From: JAWOFN01 sp046497505 [NCBI: bacterium]
GTDB lineage: Bacteria > Blakebacterota > Blakebacteria > Blakebacterales
NCBI GenBank assembly: GCA_046497505.1
Contig: JAWOFN010000095.1
Span: 1-10,011 of the forward strand
Direction: 5' to 3'
DNA length: 10,011 nucleotides
Shown here: positions 712-9,394 of the stretch, in pieces
Position numbering within the stretch: the first letter of the stretch is position 1
How the letters are laid out: every line of letters begins with the position of its first letter
Notes under the pieces: generated by a model
What the model was told of the DNA's origin: nothing
Seen by the model: only the letters and a program-made list of their open reading frames with translations
The model's database searches: none
Program-made: the position numbers and the translations under genes

Positions 712-1845
712 ATGGAATATCGCAGCGCCCCTCTTCACCTGCTTCTGCTTATCTTCCTCGTCTCCTGTGAAGGGGGGCAGGGGGCCGGGCCACCTTCCGA
801 AGACTTCCCTCTGCTCACGGTGGAGGACGCTTCTCTCTTCGCCGGTCTGGCGCTGGAGAGCATCCAGCGGGAGTACCCCAACAAGCTCGAGCATGTGATG
901 AACGGGCCGGAGGGTGTGGAGAGCCCCTCCGAGCTGCACCCGATCTTCTACGGGAGCTTCGACTGGCACTCCAGCGTGCACGGCCACTGGATGCTGGTGC
1001 GGCTGATGCGGGCCTTCCCCGACCTGCCGGAGGCGGATGAGATCCGCAGGGTGCTCGGTGTGCACTTCACCCCGGAACATGTGGCGACGGAGGTGGCCTA
1101 TCTGGGGCAGCCGAACCGCGCATCCTTCGAGCGGACCTATGGGTGGGCGTGGCTGCTGAAGCTGGCCGAGGAACTGCGGGTCTGGGACGACCCGGACGGA
1201 GACAGGTGGGCCGAGACCCTACAGCCCCTGGCGGACGCCTTCGTGGGTCGGTACATGGACTTCCTGCCCAAGCAGCAGTATCCGATCCGCCGGGGCGTGC
1301 ACCCCAACACGGCCTTCGGGATCGCCTTCGCGCTGGATTACGCCCGGGCGGCCGGGGAATCGGAGTTCGAGACACTCCTGCTCCAGCGTGCACGGGACTA
1401 CTTCGATTCCGAGGTGGACTATCCTGCCCGCTGGGAGCCGGACGGCGATGACTTCTTCTCGCGCTCCCTCGTCGAGGCGGACCTGATGCGGAGGGTCCTG
1501 CGACCGGTGGGCTTCGCGGAGTGGTTCGGGGCGTTCCTCCCGGGCATCCCGGACGGCGAGCCGGCCTCGCTGCTGGAGCCCGCGGATGTCTCCGACCGCT
1601 CCGACCCGAAGATCGTGCACCTGGATGGGCTGAACCTGAGCAGGGCGTGGTGCATGCGGGGAATCGCCGGGGCGCTGCCTGCCGGTGATCCGGCCGTCCC
1701 GGTCCTGGAGGCCTCGGCCGCCCGGCACGCCCGGGCCACGCTCCCCCACATCGCTAGCGGAAACTACGAGGGGGAGCACTGGCTGGCCTCGTTCGCCGTC
1801 TACATGCTGACCGAGGGAACAGGGACCGGAGGGATGGACCGATGA
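712..1845 (+). CDS. DUF2891 family lipoprotein
   Basis: This 377-residue protein begins with a lipoprotein signal: a hydrophobic run at residues 8-18 and the lipobox LVSC with Cys19, followed by a short Gly-rich linker. Glu20 after the cysteine suggests it is not an Asp+2 Lol-avoidance type, so outer-membrane attachment is plausible. The rest matches DUF2891, a family of unknown function with an all-helical, toroid-like composition. Visible family features are DWHSSVHGHW (residues 84-93, three closely spaced histidines), a YGWAWLLKL segment, a YPIRRGVHPNTAFG segment, an R/E-rich FFSRSLVEADLMRRVL helix, and the C-terminal NYEGEHWLASFAVYMLT. No reaction is established for the family; the conserved histidines and aromatics hint at a ligand or sugar-like substrate, which is inference. 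The start is set by the lipobox and the RBS at 700-705. The stop overlaps the next start (ATGA), so this gene and the methyltransferase are probably co-translated. Confidence 0.85.
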   Translation: MEYRSAPLHLLLLIFLVSCEGGQGAGPPSEDFPLLTVEDASLFAGLALESIQREYPNKLEHVMNGPEGVESPSELHPIFYGSFDWHSSVHGHWMLVRLMRAFPDLPEADEIRRVLGVHFTPEHVATEVAYLGQPNRASFERTYGWAWLLKLAEELRVWDDPDGDRWAETLQPLADAFVGRYMDFLPKQQYPIRRGVHPNTAFGIAFALDYARAAGESEFETLLLQRARDYFDSEVDYPARWEPDGDDFFSRSLVEADLMRRVLRPVGFAEWFGAFLPGIPDGEPASLLEPADVSDRSDPKIVHLDGLNLSRAWCMRGIAGALPAGDPAVPVLEASAARHARATLPHIASGNYEGEHWLASFAVYMLTEGTGTGGMDR

Positions 1846-2432
1846 GCGAAGAAGACGGTAACGGGGAGAAGAAGCGTCATCGCCACCACGGGAAGTCGAG
1901 CCGCTCCTTCCTGGACGCCGGGGCGATCCTGGATGGGTTCGGGCTGGGTCCCGACGAGACGGTCCTCGACCTGGGATGTGGGGACGGGCACTTCGCCATC
2001 GAGGCCGCGGAACGGGTGGACTTCGACACGGCGGTCTATGCCCTGGATCTCTGGCCCGATTCCATCGAGGGACTGCGAGAGGAACTGGAGGACCTGGGAC
2101 TCCGCAAGGTGAAGCCCATCCTGGCCGACGCCACCGAGGAGATCCCCCTGCCCGCCGACACCGTGCGGGTCTGCATCATGGTGAACGTGCTTCACGGGTT
2201 CGTACACAACGGGGAGTTCGACGACCTGATGGAGCAGCTGGTGCCGGTGCTGCACACCAGGTGCCGGATCCTGATCGTGGACTACCGCAGGGTGGAGGAT
2301 GAGCACGGCCCGCCCCTGGAGGTGCGGGTGGACCCGGAAGAGGCCCTCAGCCTGTTCGAGCCGTACGGGTTCAGCATGGGGAAGGAAGTCGAGGTGGAGA
2401 AGAACCGCTACGCGGTGGAGCTGGTGCGCTGA
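1842..2432 (+). CDS. Class I SAM-dependent methyltransferase with His/Lys-rich N-terminus
   Basis: This 196-residue cytoplasmic protein has the Rossmann methyltransferase core. Motif I is VLDLGCGDGHF (residues 41-51), and an acidic strand-2 residue, Asp69 in YALDLWP, would bind the ribose of S-adenosylmethionine. It continues with ADATEEIPLP (motif II region), VNVLHGF, a RILIVDYRR strand, and a C-terminal PYGFSMGKEVEVEKNRYAVEL substrate-side region. It resembles the UbiE/type-11-like small methyltransferases common in methanogens and anaerobic bacteria, whose substrates are mostly unknown. Residues 9-21 form a basic, histidine-rich tail (KKRHRHH then GKSSR) before the fold, which may bind metal or nucleic acid (inference). 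The start ATG overlaps the DUF2891 stop, and GGAGGG lies about 8 bases upstream inside that gene. The pair shares a transcript, but one product is lipid-anchored outside the cytoplasm and the other is not. Confidence 0.88.
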   Translation: MSEEDGNGEKKRHRHHGKSSRSFLDAGAILDGFGLGPDETVLDLGCGDGHFAIEAAERVDFDTAVYALDLWPDSIEGLREELEDLGLRKVKPILADATEEIPLPADTVRVCIMVNVLHGFVHNGEFDDLMEQLVPVLHTRCRILIVDYRRVEDEHGPPLEVRVDPEEALSLFEPYGFSMGKEVEVEKNRYAVELVR

Positions 2433-2465
2433 CCTTCCGTCTCGCGCAGGCGGGCGTTCTTCTCC

Positions 2466-3824
2466 TCAGACGGGCGAGGTCTCCATCCGGTCCAGGTATT
2501 TTTTCACGGCGCTGGCGGCGATGCCGGCCAACCCCAGGATCCCGATGAGGTTGGCGAAGGCCATCATGCCGTTGAAGACATCGCCGATGGACCATGCCAC
2601 CTCCACCCGCAGGACCGAGCCGAGGAAGATCATACCGCAGAAGATCCACCGGAAGGGGCGCCGGATCCGGAAGCCCAGCAGGTAGGCATAGGAGATCTCG
2701 CCGTAGTAGGGGTTGGCGATGAGGCTGGAGATGCCGAAGAGGAGGGAGGAGGCGGCCACGATCAGCCCGCCGATGCCCGGGAGGGCGGCGTTGAACGCCC
2801 GTACCGTCATCTCGGTGCTGGTCCCCTCGGTCCAGGCCCCCGTGACGAGCACGACCAGGGCGGTGAGGGTGCAGACCACGAAGGTGTCGATGAACACATC
2901 CAGCGAGGCGATGAGTCCCTGCCGAACCGGCTCGCTGGTCTTCGCCGCCGCGTGGAAGACCGCCGCGGTCCCGGTGCCTGCCTCGTTAGAATAGGCTCCC
3001 CGGGCCAGCCCGTACCGCATGGCCCGTGCCACCGTGGCCCCGGCGATCCCCCCGCCCAGGGCACTGGGTTTGAAGGCCCCCACGAAGATCAGCCCCAGCG
3101 CCTCTGGGATGCGCCCGGCGAAGAGGATGAGGGTGAGCAGGCCCCCGCCGATGTAGAGCACGACCATGAAGGGGCTCAGGAACTCGGTCACCCGGGCGAT
3201 GCTCTTGATGCCCCCGATGATCACCGCCCAGACGATGAGGGCCAGCAGGAAGCCGGAGACCACCGGCTCGATCCCCAGCTGGGCCTCCAGGGCCAGGGCG
3301 ATGGAGTTGCTCTGCACCGTGGTGGTGGCGAAGAGGGCCTTCCCCCCCATGAAGAAGGCGAAGATCCCCGCCAGCCACGGCAGGCCCAGGCCGCGGCTGA
3401 TATAGTACATCGGGCCCCCCGCCACCGTGCCGTCGGGTGCGAAGGTCTTGAAGTGCTGGCCGAGGATCGCTTCCACGATCTTGGTGGCCATGCCGAAGAG
3501 GGCGGAGAGCCACATCCAGAAGATGGCACCCGGTCCCCCCATGGCGATGGCGGTGGCCACACCGGCGATGTTGCCGTTCCCGATGGTGGCGGCCAGGCTG
3601 GTGGTCAGAGCCTGGAAGGGGGAGATGTCTCCCCCCCGCTCATCGCTCGTCTCCCCGTAGTCCCCCCGGCCCAGTCCGAAGCGGAAGGAGAGGCCGAGGC
3701 GGCGGAGCTGGACGAACCGCAGGCGGATGGTGAGATAGAAGCCCACCCCCAGCAGGAGGACCACCATCTGGGGGCCCCATACGACGGCACCCATGGACTG
3801 GAGGATTCGTTCTGCGGCATCCAT
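2466..3824 (-). CDS. AGCS family sodium/alanine (glycine) symporter
   Basis: This 452-residue inner-membrane protein is the usual length for the alanine/glycine:cation symporter family, which imports small neutral amino acids with Na+ (or H+) through a LeuT-like fold of about 11 membrane segments. Diagnostic stretches are the N-terminal GDISPFQALTTSLAATIGNG followed by NIAGVATAIAMGGPG (about residues 66-105), WLSALFGMATKIVEA, GGPMYYISRGLG, and the signature SNEAGTGTAAVFHAAAKT (Asn280 begins NEAGTG) followed by PVRQG and VFIDTFVVCTLTALV. The start at 3824 (MDAAERILQ) is the usual short N-terminus just before the first hydrophobic segment. An in-frame open stretch extends upstream to 4769, but it lies antisense to the beta-barrel gene and has no family similarity. 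There is no Shine-Dalgarno sequence; instead a -10 box ends 8 bases before the ATG. The gene is convergent with the methyltransferase across a 33-base gap. Substrate choice between Ala and Gly cannot be read from sequence. Confidence 0.96.
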   Translation of the reverse strand: MDAAERILQSMGAVVWGPQMVVLLLGVGFYLTIRLRFVQLRRLGLSFRFGLGRGDYGETSDERGGDISPFQALTTSLAATIGNGNIAGVATAIAMGGPGAIFWMWLSALFGMATKIVEAILGQHFKTFAPDGTVAGGPMYYISRGLGLPWLAGIFAFFMGGKALFATTTVQSNSIALALEAQLGIEPVVSGFLLALIVWAVIIGGIKSIARVTEFLSPFMVVLYIGGGLLTLILFAGRIPEALGLIFVGAFKPSALGGGIAGATVARAMRYGLARGAYSNEAGTGTAAVFHAAAKTSEPVRQGLIASLDVFIDTFVVCTLTALVVLVTGAWTEGTSTEMTVRAFNAALPGIGGLIVAASSLLFGISSLIANPYYGEISYAYLLGFRIRRPFRWIFCGMIFLGSVLRVEVAWSIGDVFNGMMAFANLIGILGLAGIAASAVKKYLDRMETSPV

Positions 3825-3832
3825 GGTGCGGC

Positions 3833-3861
3833 ATTGTAATAGGAGGTGCCCCTCGGCCCAA
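3833..3861 (-). promoter_or_regulatory. Candidate promoter of the AGCS gene (possible leaderless start)
   Basis: On the minus strand TTGGGC (3856-3861) and TACAAT (3833-3838) are separated by 17 bases. The -10 matches 5 of 6 consensus positions and the -35 only 3 of 6. Only 8 bases separate the -10 from the ATG at 3824, so transcription would begin at or within a base or two of the start codon. The missing Shine-Dalgarno fits this reading. Confidence 0.45.
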
Positions 3862-3951
3862 GTCTCTCCACGTCGCGGGGGCGGGAGGGCTGGATTCGGG
3901 CTGCAGAGCGCATCATACTGCGGATACCCTCTGGAACCCCGACCGGAAGGG

Positions 3952-3957
3952 AAGGAG
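3952..3957 (+). promoter_or_regulatory. Ribosome binding site deciding the beta-barrel gene start
   Basis: AAGGAG lies 5 bases before the GTG at 3963. It supports the GTG start, which gives a compact signal peptide, over the in-frame upstream ATG at 3846 or the downstream ATG at 3981. Confidence 0.6.
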
Positions 3958-3962
3958 CCGCC

Positions 3963-4760
3963 GTGAACCGACCCCGGAGTATGTCCCTGTGTATCGCCAC
4001 CCTCGCGTGCGTGTTGACAGCAGCGGTGTTGCTGCCGCAGCAGGCCCGCGCCCAGGTCTCTGTGGACATCGAGAGCGGGCTTGCGTTCAGCGGATACAAC
4101 GATGTGCAGGTGCCCCGGGAGACAGGGACGCGCTTCAGCCTCTCCGAGGACCTGGAGGTGGACCGCAGCCCCTTCCTGCGCCTGAGGATGGAGTGGGACC
4201 TGAACGAGAGGCATACCCTGGGACTGCTCTACGCCCCGCTGACCCTGGACGCCTCGGGCTCGGTACCTTCGCCGCTGGTCTTCGAGGGGGTGACCTTCCC
4301 CGCCAGCTCCCCGCTGGATGCCTTTTACACTTTCAACAGTTACCGGCTGACATGGCGCTACAACCTGCGGACCCACGAGGGGTTCCGTGCCGGGATGGGG
4401 CTCACCGCCAAGATCCGGGATGCCGCGATCCGCATCGAGGGGGGCGGACTGGAATCGGAGAAGACCAATGTGGGCTTCGTGCCGCTGCTGCACTTCCTTG
4501 CGGCGTGGGAGCTCGCCGACACGCTGGACCTGCTGCTGACCGGGGATGCCCTGGCCGCACCGCAGGGTCGGGCGGAGGATGTGTTCGCCGGCATCAAGAT
4601 CCGTTCCGGCGGAGGTCCGTTCAAAACACTGCTTGCGGATTCCGGCACGGTGGAATACCGGCTCGGCTACCGGATCGTGGAGGGGGGCGCGAACGTGGCC
4701 GAGGTCTACAACTTCGCACTCATCCACTATGTCAGCCTGGGTGTCCGGGTGAGCTTCTGA
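3963..4760 (+). CDS. Predicted outer-membrane beta-barrel protein, function unknown
   Basis: The product is 265 residues from a GTG start with a good RBS. Residues 1-30 form a Sec signal peptide: basic NRPR, a hydrophobic core at about 8-24, and an ARA|QV cleavage site after residue 30. The mature part of about 235 residues alternates polar and hydrophobic residues (for example FLRLRMEWDL, TLGLLYAPLTL, SYRLTWRYNL, VEYRLGYRI) and ends VSLGVRVSF. The terminal Phe with alternating hydrophobics is the beta-signal recognised by the BAM complex. This points to a small barrel of roughly 8-12 strands in the outer membrane. I do not recognise the family; a generic porin-like or OmpW-like barrel is possible. 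It is too short for a FadL-type fatty acid channel. It is the first gene of a plus-strand run, divergent from the symporter, with the DUF1295 gene only 10 bases downstream. Confidence 0.75.
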   Translation: MNRPRSMSLCIATLACVLTAAVLLPQQARAQVSVDIESGLAFSGYNDVQVPRETGTRFSLSEDLEVDRSPFLRLRMEWDLNERHTLGLLYAPLTLDASGSVPSPLVFEGVTFPASSPLDAFYTFNSYRLTWRYNLRTHEGFRAGMGLTAKIRDAAIRIEGGGLESEKTNVGFVPLLHFLAAWELADTLDLLLTGDALAAPQGRAEDVFAGIKIRSGGGPFKTLLADSGTVEYRLGYRIVEGGANVAEVYNFALIHYVSLGVRVSF

Positions 4761-4770
4761 GGAGGGCATC

Positions 4771-5559
4771 GTGGGACTGATCCCCGAACTGGCGCTGGTG
4801 GTCTTCCTCTACATGACGGCGCTCTTCCTGCTGGCCTGGGCCGTGGAGGACAACTCCATCGTGGATATCGCGTGGGGGCCGGGGTTCATCCTTATCGCCT
4901 GGCTGTCGATGCTCTGGGGCAGCGGGCCCCTGACACGTCCGCTCCTGGCCACCGGGATGGTCACGATCTGGGGCTCCCGACTGGCCGCCCACATCTATTT
5001 CCGCAACAGGGGACAGGGGGAAGACCGCCGCTACGCGGCCTGGCGCCGGCAGTGGGGCCGCTGGTTTCGGCTGCGCAGCTTCTTCCAGATCTTCATGCTC
5101 CAGGGGTCGCTGATGCTGGTGATCGCCTGGGAGGTGGTGCTCATCAACACCCGTTCAGGGAGCGGGCTGGGCTGGCTGGACGGCATCGGCGCGCTGGTCT
5201 GGTTGACCGGCTTCTGTTTCCAGGTGGTGGGTGATGCGCAGCTGGCCCGTTTCAAGCGGGATCCCTCCAACCAGGGCGACGTGCTCGACACAGGGCTCTG
5301 GCGGTATACCCGCCACCCGAACTATTTCGGAGAGGCCGTCATGTGGTGGGGTATATTCCTGGTGGCCCTGAACGTGTCCGGCGGCTGGATGGGGGTCGTG
5401 AGCCCGCTGGTCATCACAGGACTCTTGCTCCGGGTCTCCGGAGTGCCCATGCTGGAAAGGGACATGGCGGAACGACGGCCGGGCTACCGTGAGTATGTGA
5501 GTCGTACCAGCTCGTTCTTCCCCATGCCTCCCAAGCGGGATGGAGCCGAAGAGGCATGA
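4771..5559 (+). CDS. DUF1295 integral membrane protein (steroid 5-alpha-reductase-like fold)
   Basis: This 262-residue polytopic protein starts at GTG, 4 bases after GGAGGG (4761-4766). It matches the DUF1295 family throughout: an early DNSIVDIAWGPGF segment, WGSRLAAHIYFRNRGQGEDRRY on the cytoplasmic side, LWRYTRHPNYFGE (residues 176-188), and a C-terminal MLERDMAERRPGYREYVSRTSSFFP. The R-Y-x-R-H-P-N-Y-F-G-E motif is shared with the C-terminal catalytic region of steroid 5-alpha reductases, sterol C14 reductases and isoprenylcysteine methyltransferases, where it lines the cofactor site. Six to seven hydrophobic segments are visible. A reductase or transferase acting on a lipid in the inner membrane, probably using NADPH or SAM, is the likely role, but the substrate of DUF1295 proteins is not established. 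Tight spacing to the barrel gene (10 bases) and 48 bases to the kinase fusion suggest one operon. Confidence 0.9.
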   Translation: MGLIPELALVVFLYMTALFLLAWAVEDNSIVDIAWGPGFILIAWLSMLWGSGPLTRPLLATGMVTIWGSRLAAHIYFRNRGQGEDRRYAAWRRQWGRWFRLRSFFQIFMLQGSLMLVIAWEVVLINTRSGSGLGWLDGIGALVWLTGFCFQVVGDAQLARFKRDPSNQGDVLDTGLWRYTRHPNYFGEAVMWWGIFLVALNVSGGWMGVVSPLVITGLLLRVSGVPMLERDMAERRPGYREYVSRTSSFFPMPPKRDGAEEA

Positions 5560-5607
5560 ACGGGCCCTCCCGAAAGAGGAACGATTTTCCGTGGAAGTGA
5601 TGCGAAC

Positions 5608-7389
5608 GTGAAGATCTCCTACCTGGACGGTCCCCGATACTACCGTGCCTTCGTGGCAGGTGCCCACGAACTGGCCCGACAGCAGGCCGAACTGAACCGG
5701 ATCAACGTCTTCCCGGTGGCCGACGGGGACACCGGAAGCAACATGGCGGCCACCGCCCGTGCCGTGGTGACGGGCAGCGTGGTCAGCTCCTCGCTGAAGG
5801 AGACCGCGGCCAGCATGGCCGACGCGGCCATGATGGGCGCGCGGGGGAACAGCGGTCTGATCTTCGCCCAGTACCTGTACGGATTCAGTCGGGAGGTGGG
5901 CGACCGGGCATCGGTGGCGGGGACCGCCGCCGCCGAGCTCTTCGCCCGTGCCGCCTCCCACGCCCGGGAGGCGGTGAGTGAGCCGGTGGAAGGCACCATG
6001 CTCACCGTGATGCGGGAATGGGGCGAGGCTCTGGAGGGCCTGAAGCAGCGTGTCCACGACCTCGCAGAACTCATCCCCGCCTCGCTCCACAGGGCGCGCG
6101 AGTCGCTCAGGGGCACCACCGAGAAGCTGGAGGTCCTGGCCCGGAACGGCGTGGTGGATGCGGGGGCGAAGGGGTTTGTGACCTTCCTGGAGGGGGTGGA
6201 ATCCTTCCTCCAGGGGGGCAGTCTGCGGGAGGGGGTGATGAAGGACCTGGTCGTGGAGAGTGCGGGACACGCCGCAGCGGACCTCTCTGAGGAAGTCACC
6301 TTCCGCTTCTGTACCGAAGCGGTGCTGGAGGGGGAGGACATCACCCCCGAAGGACTGCGGAGCGAGCTGAAGGCCTGGGGGGACTCGGTGGTCACGGTGG
6401 GGCGCCCCGGCAAGGTACACATCCACGTGCACACCAGCCGCCCTGCCGATCTCTTCCAGTCCGTCGAGGAACGCGCCGCGATCCTCCAGCCCAAGTGCGA
6501 GGATATGCTGCGCCAGGTCCAGGCGGCCGGACATCGGCGTTCGGAGGTCGCCCTCGTGGTGGATTCCGCGTGCGACCTGCCGCCGGAACTGTTCGAAGAA
6601 CACCGGATCCACATGCTCCCCCTCCACCTGGCCTTCGGCGAGTCGGTATACCTGGACAAGCGTACCATCGACCAGGGCCGGTTCTACGAGAAGCTGGATG
6701 AGAGCGGCCCCTATCCGACCACCAGCCAGATCCCCACGGGCGATTTCGAGCAGCTCTTCCGCTCGCTGGGCGAGCAGTACGGGTCGATCGTGGCCATCAC
6801 CCTCTCCTCGGGGTTGAGCGGGACCTGGAACGCGGCGCGCATCGCCGCCGGGCGCCTCCCGGGCCGGCGGATCGAGGTCATCGACAGCCGTCACCTCTCG
6901 GGCAGCATGGGCCTGGTGGTGCTGGAGGCCGCTGAGGCGATACGAGAGGGATGCTCCCACGACGAAGTAGCTGCCCGGGCGCGGGACGCGGTGGAGCGTG
7001 CCGAGATCCTGGTGGGGGCGAAGACCATGAAGTACCTGGTCCGGAGCGGGCGGGTCAGCGCCGTGAAGGGGCTCGTGGGCAGGTTGATGAACATCAAACC
7101 GGTCATCACCCTCGATGAAGAAGGGAAGGCGGCTGCCTTCGGCAGGGCATTCGGCCAGAGGGGCCTGTTGAAGCTCATTCGGAAGAAGGCCTCGGAACTC
7201 TCGCGGACCGAGGGCGTCCGCAGGTACTGCGTGGTCCACGGCCATGACCCCGCCACGGCCCGGGAGTGGGCCCGGGCCATGGAGGAGACCGTGGGGCGCC
7301 CCCCCGAGTTCGTCATGGACATCGCCCCGGTCATCGGCCTCCACGCGGGGAGAGGTGCCGCGGCGGTGTGCCTGCTCACGGGAGACTGA
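5608..7389 (+). CDS. DAK2-DegV fusion: predicted single-chain fatty acid kinase (FakA N/L domains + FakB-like domain)
   Basis: This 593-residue cytoplasmic protein has three parts. Residues 1 to about 200 are a DAK2/FakA kinase domain: LDG at 6-8, NVFPVADGDTGSNM (33-46) with Mg-ATP aspartates Asp39 and Asp41, GARGNSG (77-83), and VVDAGAKGF. Residues about 225-310 match the FakA linker domain, keeping the catalytic Cys (FCTE, Cys235) and HVH pair (His273, His275), equivalent to Cys240, His282 and His284 of S. aureus FakA. Residues 312-593 are a DegV/FakB domain: VVDSACDLP, TTSQIPTGDF (Thr371, Thr372), LSSGLSGTWNAA (399-410), VIDSRHLSGSMG (425-435), NIKPVI, and a final PVIGLHAGRGA. FakA phosphorylates a fatty acid held by FakB to give acyl-phosphate for PlsX/PlsY phospholipid synthesis. 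Here the FakB-like domain sits where FakA normally has its FakB-docking domain. The GTG start has only a weak GGAAG 10 bases upstream, but no other in-frame start suits the domain. Fatty acid specificity is unknown. Confidence 0.9.
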   Translation: MKISYLDGPRYYRAFVAGAHELARQQAELNRINVFPVADGDTGSNMAATARAVVTGSVVSSSLKETAASMADAAMMGARGNSGLIFAQYLYGFSREVGDRASVAGTAAAELFARAASHAREAVSEPVEGTMLTVMREWGEALEGLKQRVHDLAELIPASLHRARESLRGTTEKLEVLARNGVVDAGAKGFVTFLEGVESFLQGGSLREGVMKDLVVESAGHAAADLSEEVTFRFCTEAVLEGEDITPEGLRSELKAWGDSVVTVGRPGKVHIHVHTSRPADLFQSVEERAAILQPKCEDMLRQVQAAGHRRSEVALVVDSACDLPPELFEEHRIHMLPLHLAFGESVYLDKRTIDQGRFYEKLDESGPYPTTSQIPTGDFEQLFRSLGEQYGSIVAITLSSGLSGTWNAARIAAGRLPGRRIEVIDSRHLSGSMGLVVLEAAEAIREGCSHDEVAARARDAVERAEILVGAKTMKYLVRSGRVSAVKGLVGRLMNIKPVITLDEEGKAAAFGRAFGQRGLLKLIRKKASELSRTEGVRRYCVVHGHDPATAREWARAMEETVGRPPEFVMDIAPVIGLHAGRGAAAVCLLTGD

Positions 7390-7402
7390 CTCTCCGGCGG
7401 AG

Positions 7403-7414
7403 GCCTCCGGAGGC
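7403..7414. repeat. 12-bp GC palindrome in the fusion/bipA gap
   Basis: GCCTCCGGAGGC is a perfect palindrome starting 13 bases after the kinase-fusion stop. It overlaps a second palindrome, GGAGGCCTCC (about 7399-7408), so the segment can pair in two ways. No T tract follows, so it is not a standard terminator. The rest of the 154-base gap (7390-7543) holds a possible -10 box and an otherwise featureless leader. Confidence 0.4.
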
Positions 7415-7453
7415 TGCGGACGCCGCGGCACTCGCTTCTCCGCCGCGCCTGTG

Positions 7454-7459
7454 TATATT
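7454..7459 (+). promoter_or_regulatory. Possible -10 box of a bipA promoter
   Basis: TATATT is the only AT-rich hexamer in this GC-rich gap and matches 5 of 6 positions of the -10 consensus. I could not find an acceptable -35 at 16-18 bases. If used, it would give bipA a leader of about 80 bases, separating it from the upstream operon. Confidence 0.3.
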
Positions 7460-7543
7460 GTCCCTTCCGGCAGACCCGGAGTGTCCATCCCGCGGGACCC
7501 ATCCGAACCATCCGAAGGACCGAACCGAGGCAGGTGCAGGACT

Positions 7544-9394
7544 GTGCCCATCCGCAACATCGCCATCATCGCCCACGTGGATCACGGCAAGACCACGCTG
7601 GTGGACCAGATGCTCCGCCAGGCCGGGGTGTTCCGTGCGGACCAGCAGGTGCAGGACCGCATCATGGACTCCAACCCGCTGGAGCGGGAGCGGGGCATCA
7701 CGATCCTATCGAAGAACACCTCCATCCGCTGGGAGGGCACCAAGATCAACCTGGTGGACACGCCCGGGCACGCTGATTTCGGCGGTGAGGTGGAGCGGAT
7801 CCTGCGCATGGTGGACGGCGTGCTCCTGCTGGTGGACGCAGCCGAAGGGCCGATGCCCCAGACCCGTTTCGTGACCCGCAAGGCCCTCGGCCTGGGGCTG
7901 AAGCCGATCGTGGTCATCAACAAGGTGGACCGCAAGGACGCCCGTCCCGTGGAGGTCCACGACGAGGTGCTCGAACTATTCCTGGAACTGGACGCCACAG
8001 AGGAGCAGATCTACTGCCCCTTCCTCTACGCCTCGGGCAGAGAAGGGTGGACCTCACCGGAGCCGGACGTGCGGGGTGGGGACCTGGGGGCCCTCTTCGG
8101 CGCGATCACCCGGCATGTGCCTTCCCCGGAGGGCGACCCGGGCGGCTCCTTCCAGATGCTGGTCTCCACCCTGGACCACAGTCCCTATGTGGGCAGGATC
8201 GGCATCGGCCGCATCGAACGGGGCCGGGTGGAGGTGGGGCAGGCCGTGCGGGTGCTCCCCCTGGGCGAACCGGGCATGGTGGAAGACGAGGAGGTGGGGA
8301 GCCGAGCCCGTGTGGTGCAGCTCTACGGGTTCAAGGACCTTGAGCGGGTGGCCATCCAGGAGGCCGGGGCAGGCGACATCGTGGCCCTCGCCGGGCTGGA
8401 GGGAATGGAGATCGGGACCACCCTCACCGATCCCGCCCATCCTCAGCGTCTCCGGGGGATCGCGGTGGAAGAACCCACCATGTCGGTAGACTTCAGTGTG
8501 AACACCTCGCCCCTCTCCGGCCGGTCCGGCAGGTACGTGACCAGCCGTCAGCTCCGGGAGCGGCTCTTCCGCGAGCTGGAGGGGAACGTGGCCCTGCGGG
8601 TGGAGCAGACCGACTCCCCCGACACCCTCACCGTCTCGGGTCGGGGGGAGCTGCACCTGGCCATCCTCATGGAGACCATGCGCCGGGAGGGGTACGAGTT
8701 CCAGGTGGGCAGACCCCGGGTGGTGGAGCGGACCGGGTCGGGAGGGGAGCGGATGGAACCGTACGAAGAACTGCTCGTCGAGATCCCGGACGGGATGATG
8801 GGTACGGTCATGGAGGGGCTGGGTCCCCGAAAGTCCGAACTCATCGAGATGCGCGCGACCGACCGTGGGACCCTCCGGATGCGTTTCAAGATCCCGGCGC
8901 GGGGTCTCTTCGGCTACCGTTCTGAGTTCCTGACCGAGACCCGGGGTGAGGGCATCATGCATCACCGTTTCCTGGAGTACGGTCCCTGGGTGGGGGAGCT
9001 GGAGGGGCGGCGGAACGGCGTGCTGGTGGCGGACCGGCTCGGTGAGGTGGTGGGGTACGCGCTCGACAACCTCCAGGAGCGGGCCACCCTCTTCGTGCGA
9101 CCCGGGGATGTGGTCTACCAGGGGATGATCGTGGGGGAGCATGTACGTCCCGGCGATCTGGACGTGAACGTGCTGAAGGAGAAGAAGCTCAGCAACATCC
9201 GCACCCATGCCTCGGACGAGGCCATACGGCTCGAACCGGGCCGGGAGGTGACGCTGGAGACCGGCCTCGAGTTCATCGAACCGGACGAGCTCATGGAGGT
9301 CACACCTGGAGCGGTCCGGCTCAGGAAGCGCCATCTGCATCCTGAAGACCGGAAGCGGGCCGCCAAAAAGGCTGGGTCCCGCGCCGGGGTCTGA
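7544..9394 (+). CDS. bipA: Ribosome-associated translational GTPase BipA/TypA
   Basis: This 616-residue protein is full length for BipA, a GTPase of the elongation-factor family that binds the 70S ribosome, assists 50S assembly and supports growth under stress or at low temperature. The G domain shows G1 AHVDHGKTT (residues 10-18), switch I ending RERGITI, G3 DTPGHADF (from Asp72), G4 NKVD (126-129) and a G5 region YASGREGW. Domain II follows ([19 protein letters not shown]), then the domain III and V EF-G-like folds ([50 protein letters not shown]). The BipA-specific C-terminus ([33 protein letters not shown]) ends in a basic tail. EF-G and LepA are excluded by this C-terminus and by the lack of domain IV. 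The GTG start gives [15 protein letters not shown], the family N-terminus; the Shine-Dalgarno is weak (GAGG about 13 bases upstream). The 154-base gap before it argues for its own promoter. Confidence 0.97.

Follow-up and report, generated by a model that had tools for sequence, protein, structure and literature searches.

The 10,011-nucleotide stretch of DNA analyzed here (the window) carries a gene (5608..7389, + strand) that joins a FakA kinase domain, a FakA middle domain and a complete FakB/DegV domain on one chain of 593 aa. Taken together, its domain content, residue conservation and predicted structure make it likely that the product is a single-chain, probably dimeric, fatty acid kinase that phosphorylates the fatty acid bound in its own DegV domain. 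The FakA + FakB systems of S. aureus, S. suis and B. subtilis (YloV/DegV) have the same kinase domain, Cys/His-x-His middle domain, carrier fold and pocket residues, but they use two chains instead of one, and the fusion lacks the FakA docking domain (FakA_C), has mostly replaced FakB Arg205 and ties one fixed carrier to each kinase, whereas the two-chain systems employ several FakBs. With its docking domain absent, the fusion is a variant fatty acid kinase and not a member of FakA in the strict sense; it very probably works like FakA + FakB. The open-access literature searched yielded no published work on the fusion or on its pairing with the DUF1295 gene described below; an earlier note on this DNA knew of no biochemical description.

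Architecture and catalytic residues of the fusion

The frame runs without a stop through all 593 aa, and its GTG start agrees with close relatives (MKIRYL...). Pfam places Dak2 at residues 36-197 (112 bits), FakA-like_M (PF21645) at 232-305 (57 bits) and DegV at 314-590 (245.5 bits), the last match spanning positions 2-278 of a 280-position profile. Among NCBIfam models, DegV TIGR00762 reaches 264 bits, with a cut-off of 99.7; YloV scores 260.8 bits against a full-length cut-off of 396.1, its alignment confined to residues 13-310, and FakA (FakA_VfrB) 156.6 bits against a cut-off of 975, confined to residues 6-304. These matches bear out the earlier reading of the frame as FakA kinase, linker and FakB/DegV on one chain, and they fit the accompanying guess that similar fusions sit in databases as DAK2/DegV proteins. 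The motifs and residues then listed (TSQ at 372-374, SSGLSGT at 400-406, DSRHLSGSMG at 426-435, Cys235, His273 and His275) all lie where they had been placed. The same architecture recurs in unbroken frames of 38 further proteins, which rules out chance as well as an assembly error confined to one contig.

An AlphaFold2 model of the window protein, built from 39 fusion sequences, has a mean pLDDT of 90.7 and a pTM of 0.88. Its FakA_N or DhaL-type ATP domain, to which the Dak2 match belongs (residues 1-213; 5608..6246, + strand), superposes on six S. aureus FakA_N entries with Z 33.8-34.1 and rmsd 1.1-1.3. Between kinase and middle domain lies a flexible tether of low pLDDT (residues ~205-232; 6220..6303, + strand), with ten-residue means of 70, 46 and 50 across residues 201-230 and values below 50 at 215-225. 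The middle domain (PF21645; residues 232-308; 6301..6531, + strand) ends in a helix at 300-308 and is separated by a gap of only ~5 residues from the DegV strand that starts at 314, within the predicted fatty-acid-binding FakB/DegV domain (residues 312-593; 6541..7386, + strand).

The ATP/Mg residues of the kinase domain (N33, D39, D41, T42, N81 and D184) are invariant in 39/39 fusions; paired by motif and spacing, their S. aureus FakA counterparts are N32, D38, D40, T41, N82 and D185 (PMC9136124). Equally invariant are C235, H273 and H275 of the middle domain. In S. aureus, C240/H282/H284 are required for activity (PMC9136124) and needed for zinc binding (PMC11617999), and the role of this Cys/His site is disputed, being catalytic in the former source and that of a structural zinc site in the latter.

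A FakB carrier domain in place of the FakA docking domain

Residues 310-593 of the model match FakB/DegV structures, several of them solved with bound fatty acid, at Z 28.7-33.4. Ranked by E-value, Foldseek puts the full-length FakA of S. suis first (7w7h_A; 612 columns, TM 0.34-0.37, rmsd 25 A), because FakA_C has the same fold as the last domain of the fusion; FakB2 and other DegV chains follow with a target TM of ~0.9, and 6w6b, in which FakA_C is a separate entry, is not among the best 50 structure matches listed. With Staphylococcus-type FakB1 proteins (L096-L098, above the NF038249 cut-off) as the reference for numbering, T372, S404, R482 and H579 of the window protein align to FakB1 T62, S95, R173 and H270, and F515 aligns to R205. 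T62, S95 and H270 of FakB1 hold the carboxylate, and Arg173 is required for catalysis (PMC9136124 and PMC8892158). The lipid tunnel is formed by FakB1 segments 27-62, 164-185 and 264-273, to which FakA_C has no counterpart (PMC9136124). All three align in the DegV domain of the window protein, from which a fatty acid bound in a closed tunnel of that domain is predicted.

Given that FakA_C and FakB have a common fold (PMC9136124), the C-terminal domain could be read as merely a DegV-like docking domain serving a separate FakB, and relatives L001, L002 and L004 do show PF13684 matches of 19-20 bits, which fall short of the cut-off of 23. We give this reading almost no credence. PF13684, the FakB-docking domain, has no match in the window protein at E 0.001 in Pfam, and a profile built from the C-terminal domains of 13 FakA proteins gives the window DegV domain only -1.8 bits, as against 245.5 bits on DegV. 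On the same FakA_C profile the fused DegV domains (n=39) score below the stand-alone ones (n=70), with medians of 0.45 and 2.6 bits respectively. The tunnel-forming segments are, moreover, all there, and a second DegV match is lacking in 22 of 25 carriers (see below). The last domain is thus a FakB, and the FakA docking domain is absent, as had been proposed when the earlier note described the docking domain as replaced by the substrate carrier. That note had named, as evidence that would count against it, a C-terminus closer to FakA docking domains together with separate FakB genes; what we find is a FakB/DegV fold and, in those 22 carriers, no other DegV.

Conservation in the carrier half is uneven. 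R482, the catalytic Arg of FakB, is invariant in 39/39 fusions, and the T62 and S95 positions hold T or S and S or T, respectively, in all 39. The His270 position, on the other hand, is Asn, Ser or Leu in 10/11 Bacillota fusions (L051, L055-L060, L076-L078) and is likewise replaced in L021, a change that may alter the carboxylate network or the substrate. FakB1 Arg205 contacts the FakA docking domain (PMC9136124) and phospholipid/membrane (PMC8892158). Excluding two identical stand-alone rows, which were left out of the FakB-residue comparison, its position is basic in 69/70 stand-alone DegV domains (the exception being L035) versus 3/39 fusions (L019, L049 and L056), and non-basic or gapped in the other 36, with Phe commonest (27). 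Because the fusions form one clade, this change counts as few events. It fits docking loss, though a different way of contacting the membrane may explain it just as well. Nor does it mark lost docking cleanly: where a genome has no Dak2 match, the aligned DegV domains all retain the Arg (6/6), L035 is without it, and the residue also takes part in membrane binding.

Distribution and ancestry of the family

Including the window protein, 39 fusion proteins were recovered, 11 of them from the Bacillota sample. Among the relatives found in a genome scan, three are full-length (44-46% identity), one is cut by a contig end and one matches the kinase half only. The phylum samples comprised 247 genomes of the Aminicenantes phylum (that of G001) and 398 of Bacillota (that of Sporosarcina G251), and the fusion counts in both are lower bounds, only a few candidates per genome having been scored, from lists of limited length. 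We take the phylum of G001, titled Ca. Aminicenantes, to be Acidobacteriota in GTDB. L002, titled Clostridiales, groups with the Aminicenantes rows and was counted there.

The earlier note had asked which phyla carry the fusion. In the Aminicenantes phylum, 33/247 genomes have a DegV match and at least 25/247 a full-length fusion. For 22 of these 25 carriers the sole DegV match of the genome sits in the fusion (the exceptions, G082, G097 and G202, each contain one more), and 24 have one Dak2 match (G097 has two). Eight DegV genomes of the phylum lack the fusion, seven of them also lacking a Dak2 match; in the eighth, G064, an ordinary fakA that encodes the docking domain lies next to an ordinary fakB. 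In Bacillota the fusion occurs in at least 11/398 genomes, all 11 of which hold 2-7 other DegV matches, a few of them fragments. The earlier note described FakA and FakB as separate proteins in characterised Firmicutes systems; in these Bacillota genomes the fusion occurs as well, beside other DegV matches. The window TypA is only ~51-58% identical to Aminicenantes-phylum matches, among the matches listed; because of this low identity the window lineage probably lies outside that phylum, and the window probably represents a third lineage carrying the fusion.

Quick tree searches, assessed by SH-aLRT only and of moderate support, separate the 39 fused from the 70 stand-alone rows (which include several paralogues from the same genomes) by a single change of label in a tree of 109 DegV domains (SH-aLRT 94). 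The 39 fused kinases also fall together in a kinase tree of 53 rows (support 84), the reverse-order L036 excepted, and a smaller DegV tree of 39 rows gives the same grouping (support 94). Left out of trees and counts as duplicates or partial copies were L003, L006-L010, L020, L022, L023, L029, L045, L050 and L052-L054; L036 was left out of the 39-fusion set, the residue comparison and the 109-domain tree and kept in the kinase and smaller DegV trees. Since the trees of both halves group the fusions against stand-alone FakA or FakB, one old fusion event fits as the origin of the family.

Two further evolutionary scenarios were considered, and neither is supported. The fusion as ancestor of FakA, with its DegV domain decayed into the docking domain, would place the fused domains nearer to FakA_C, but the 39 fused domains are not closer to it than the 70 stand-alone ones; profile-profile probabilities against FakA_C are 34% for fused and 94% for stand-alone DegV. 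No conclusion is drawn on loss of PlsX with ensuing dependence on the fusion, PlsX-present and PlsX-absent genomes being found among close relatives (G001 vs G003; G190 vs G228). PlsX was not found in 9/35 genomes with PF02504, nor in the same 9 with TIGR00182, and 8 of these 9 carry the fusion, but the completeness of the 35 assemblies is not stated and the absence is not interpretable; PlsY was found in 35/35.

Other arrangements of DegV were also seen. L036 (2369-4720, - strand) of G097 is a 784-aa frame of reverse order, with DegV (16-312) before Dak2 (351-513); both its halves branch outside the main fusion group, on very long branches, and G097 also carries the normal-order fusion L011. 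In L037, L038, L039, L042 and L043 (G082, G211, G250, G242 and G148) DegV ends a 633-887 aa frame after another module. DegV is thus the last domain of a longer chain, as in the fusion, but the N-terminal module is no kinase domain. DUF4388, scanned in three of these frames, is above cut-off in L039, just below it in L037 and absent in L042. Because four of the five genomes have no Dak2 match, DegV occurs there without FakA.

Neighbouring genes and proposed reaction

In the window, 48 bp upstream of the fusion, lies a DUF1295 gene (Pfam PF06966; 4771..5559, + strand) with a predicted fold like that of sterol C14-reductases and steroid 5-alpha-reductases. DUF1295 directly adjoins the fusion on the same strand in 21/39 loci: upstream in the window, downstream within ~260 bp in nine loci of the Aminicenantes phylum, and downstream with abutting or overlapping frames in 11/11 Bacillota loci (neighbour frames were read stop-to-stop, and overlapping neighbours assigned downstream by coordinates). 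Six other loci (G202, G036, G006, G113, G022 and G062) have PlsY directly downstream, two have DUF1295 on the opposite strand, and ten have neither gene within the flanks examined, some of them short. Where DUF1295 adjoins the fusion (21 loci), the flanks examined contain no PlsY, and the acceptor there may therefore be something other than PlsY. Neither gene occurs at 20 stand-alone FakA or FakB control loci with flanks of up to ~5 kb (L189 and L191 are cut downstream, and others have a short flank on one side). Among 39 shorter loci, mostly stand-alone, DUF1295 is found in none and PlsY at the unfused L035 only; this set overlaps in genes with the 20 wider controls, and the two are not independent. 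Distant DUF1295 genes could be missed, because the profile came from four fusion-adjacent copies. The recurrent DUF1295/PlsY neighbourhood is new here and absent from the earlier note. The L035 cluster of G064 (1028-7571, - strand), with two PlsY-like genes, a fakA with docking domain and an unfused fakB, and a PGK gene further on, is the split counterpart of the fusion-PlsY pairs.

Compared with 4quv, 7c83 and 7bw1, structures of sterol C14- and steroid 5-alpha-reductases, the DUF1295 model reaches Z 15.4, 14.6 and 13.3. Its resemblance to ICMT methyltransferases is somewhat lower (Z 10.6-12.1), and all these values are near those reachable by unrelated helical models. A profile of 23 DUF1295 copies matches two steroid 5-alpha-reductase structures with E 3e-5 and 6e-5. 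In the profile alignment, counted by hand, SRD5A2 D164, N193 and E197 correspond to D155, N184 and E188 of the DUF1295 protein, but N160 corresponds to E151; SRD5A2 R227, H231 and Y235 (PMC7815742) fall outside it. Since Foldseek alone gives an E of only 0.04, a reductase-like DUF1295 protein is a lead and not a finding. The other neighbours in the window look ordinary: tRNA-Leu (51-138, - strand), dodecin (273-485, - strand), DUF2891 (541-1845, + strand), a methyltransferase (1842-2432, + strand) and TypA/BipA (7532-9394, + strand). A 304-aa frame with no Pfam match (3846-4760, + strand) overlaps the upstream part of a long reverse-strand AgcS-type symporter frame.

In the reaction we propose, the DegV domain would take up a fatty acid, with T372, S404 and H579 holding its carboxylate and R482 placed over it. 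The middle domain would dimerise the chain and carry the Cys/His (zinc) site required for activity, and the tethered kinase domain would fold down on a DegV domain, either that of the same chain or, with greater likelihood, that of the partner chain, and transfer the gamma-phosphate of ATP. The acyl-phosphate product would then pass to PlsY or to the neighbouring membrane enzyme. In the simplest picture, the middle and DegV domains would form a core and the kinase, on its tether, would close on it. Because FakA dimerises through this same middle domain (PMC9136124), which also binds zinc (PMC11617999), the fusion too is probably dimeric. When the docking domain is removed from S. aureus FakA, the remaining FakA_NL is still active, with a KM for FakB1 ~ten-fold higher (PMC9136124), and hence covalent linkage of the carrier could stand in for docking; under our proposal, the docking domain would be dispensable and absent, and Arg205 mostly Phe, because carrier and kinase are joined. 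Transfer between chains is the better guess by analogy with the fused dihydroxyacetone (DHA) kinase of Citrobacter, whose two chains intertwine and form the active sites between them (PMC6429413), and with an AlphaFold trans model of S. aureus Fak (PMC11617999). As the earlier note suggested, joining the two may also lock the enzyme to one acyl specificity and make transfer intramolecular. ATP-dependent DHA kinases (Citrobacter DHAK, human TKFC), set against split DhaK + DhaL, offer a precedent in which a kinase of the DhaL type exists both fused to its substrate domain and separate from it. They differ in that the K domain precedes L and the substrate is covalently His-bound, whereas here the kinase comes first and the carrier is DegV, and their description in the available part of PMC6429413 includes no FakA middle domain. 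The DegV half of the fusion matches the DhaK fold at a Z of only ~17.5, and no DhaK domain is matched by Pfam in the window protein at E 0.001.

The one-chain kinase is supported by full domain matches, tunnel segments and fold matches to FakA_N and FakB/DegV, by the invariance of the ATP/Mg residues, C235/H273/H275 and R482, by the fusion being the only DegV in 22/25 and the only Dak2 in 24/25 carriers, and by the presence of PlsY, an acyl-phosphate user, directly downstream in 6/39 loci. It is weakened by the replacement of His270 in 10/11 Bacillota fusions and one other, by Arg205 loss being an unclean mark, by the lack of PlsY at DUF1295 loci, by the disputed role of the Cys/His site and by full-length FakA as the top Foldseek match. 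A rival reading, which we deem unlikely, is a kinase for another carboxylate or lipid, whose DegV ligand is not a common membrane fatty acid and whose product goes to the DUF1295 enzyme and not to PlsY. In its favour are the DUF1295 genes at 21 of 39 fusion loci, including every Bacillota locus, in genomes with 2-7 other DegV matches, versus none at the 20 stand-alone controls, as well as the resemblance of the DUF1295 model to sterol C14- and steroid 5-alpha-reductases (Z 13.3-15.4) and the loss of His270 in most Bacillota fusions. Six fusions, however, have PlsY instead of DUF1295 beside them, and the remaining FakB pocket positions (T62, S95 and R173) are kept in 39/39. Far less probable still is a regulator that has lost turnover and whose DegV domain senses lipid on behalf of the kinase half. 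In its favour are the five other loci of the Aminicenantes-phylum sample where DegV ends a longer chain after an N-terminal module, with DUF4388 in some. Against it, all 39 proteins, although diverged, share the same ATP/Mg residues, Cys/His site and FakB Arg, and such conservation is not expected of a dead kinase.

A broader and rather doubtful possibility is that the fusion and DUF1295 constitute an undescribed two-enzyme lipid pathway. A carboxylic lipid enclosed in the DegV domain of the fusion would be turned into its acyl-phosphate there, and DUF1295, as a reductase-like membrane protein, would modify either this chain or the lipid made from it; the Bacillota version would operate beside ordinary Fak, and in the PlsY-linked branch the same kinase would feed ordinary phospholipid synthesis.

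For FakA-FakB, it is disputed whether the kinase acts directly on FakB-bound fatty acid or first receives the acid from FakB, and the active Fak complex has not been solved with fatty acid loaded (PMC11617999). The fusion favours direct phosphorylation within the carrier and, as a natural one-chain protein without docking domain, provides a ready-made fixed complex for structural work. More generally, it amounts to a one-gene Fak system, the sole DegV-bearing gene found in 22/25 carriers of a phylum outside the usual model organisms, and it points to the DUF1295 membrane family as a possible partner in a lipid pathway.
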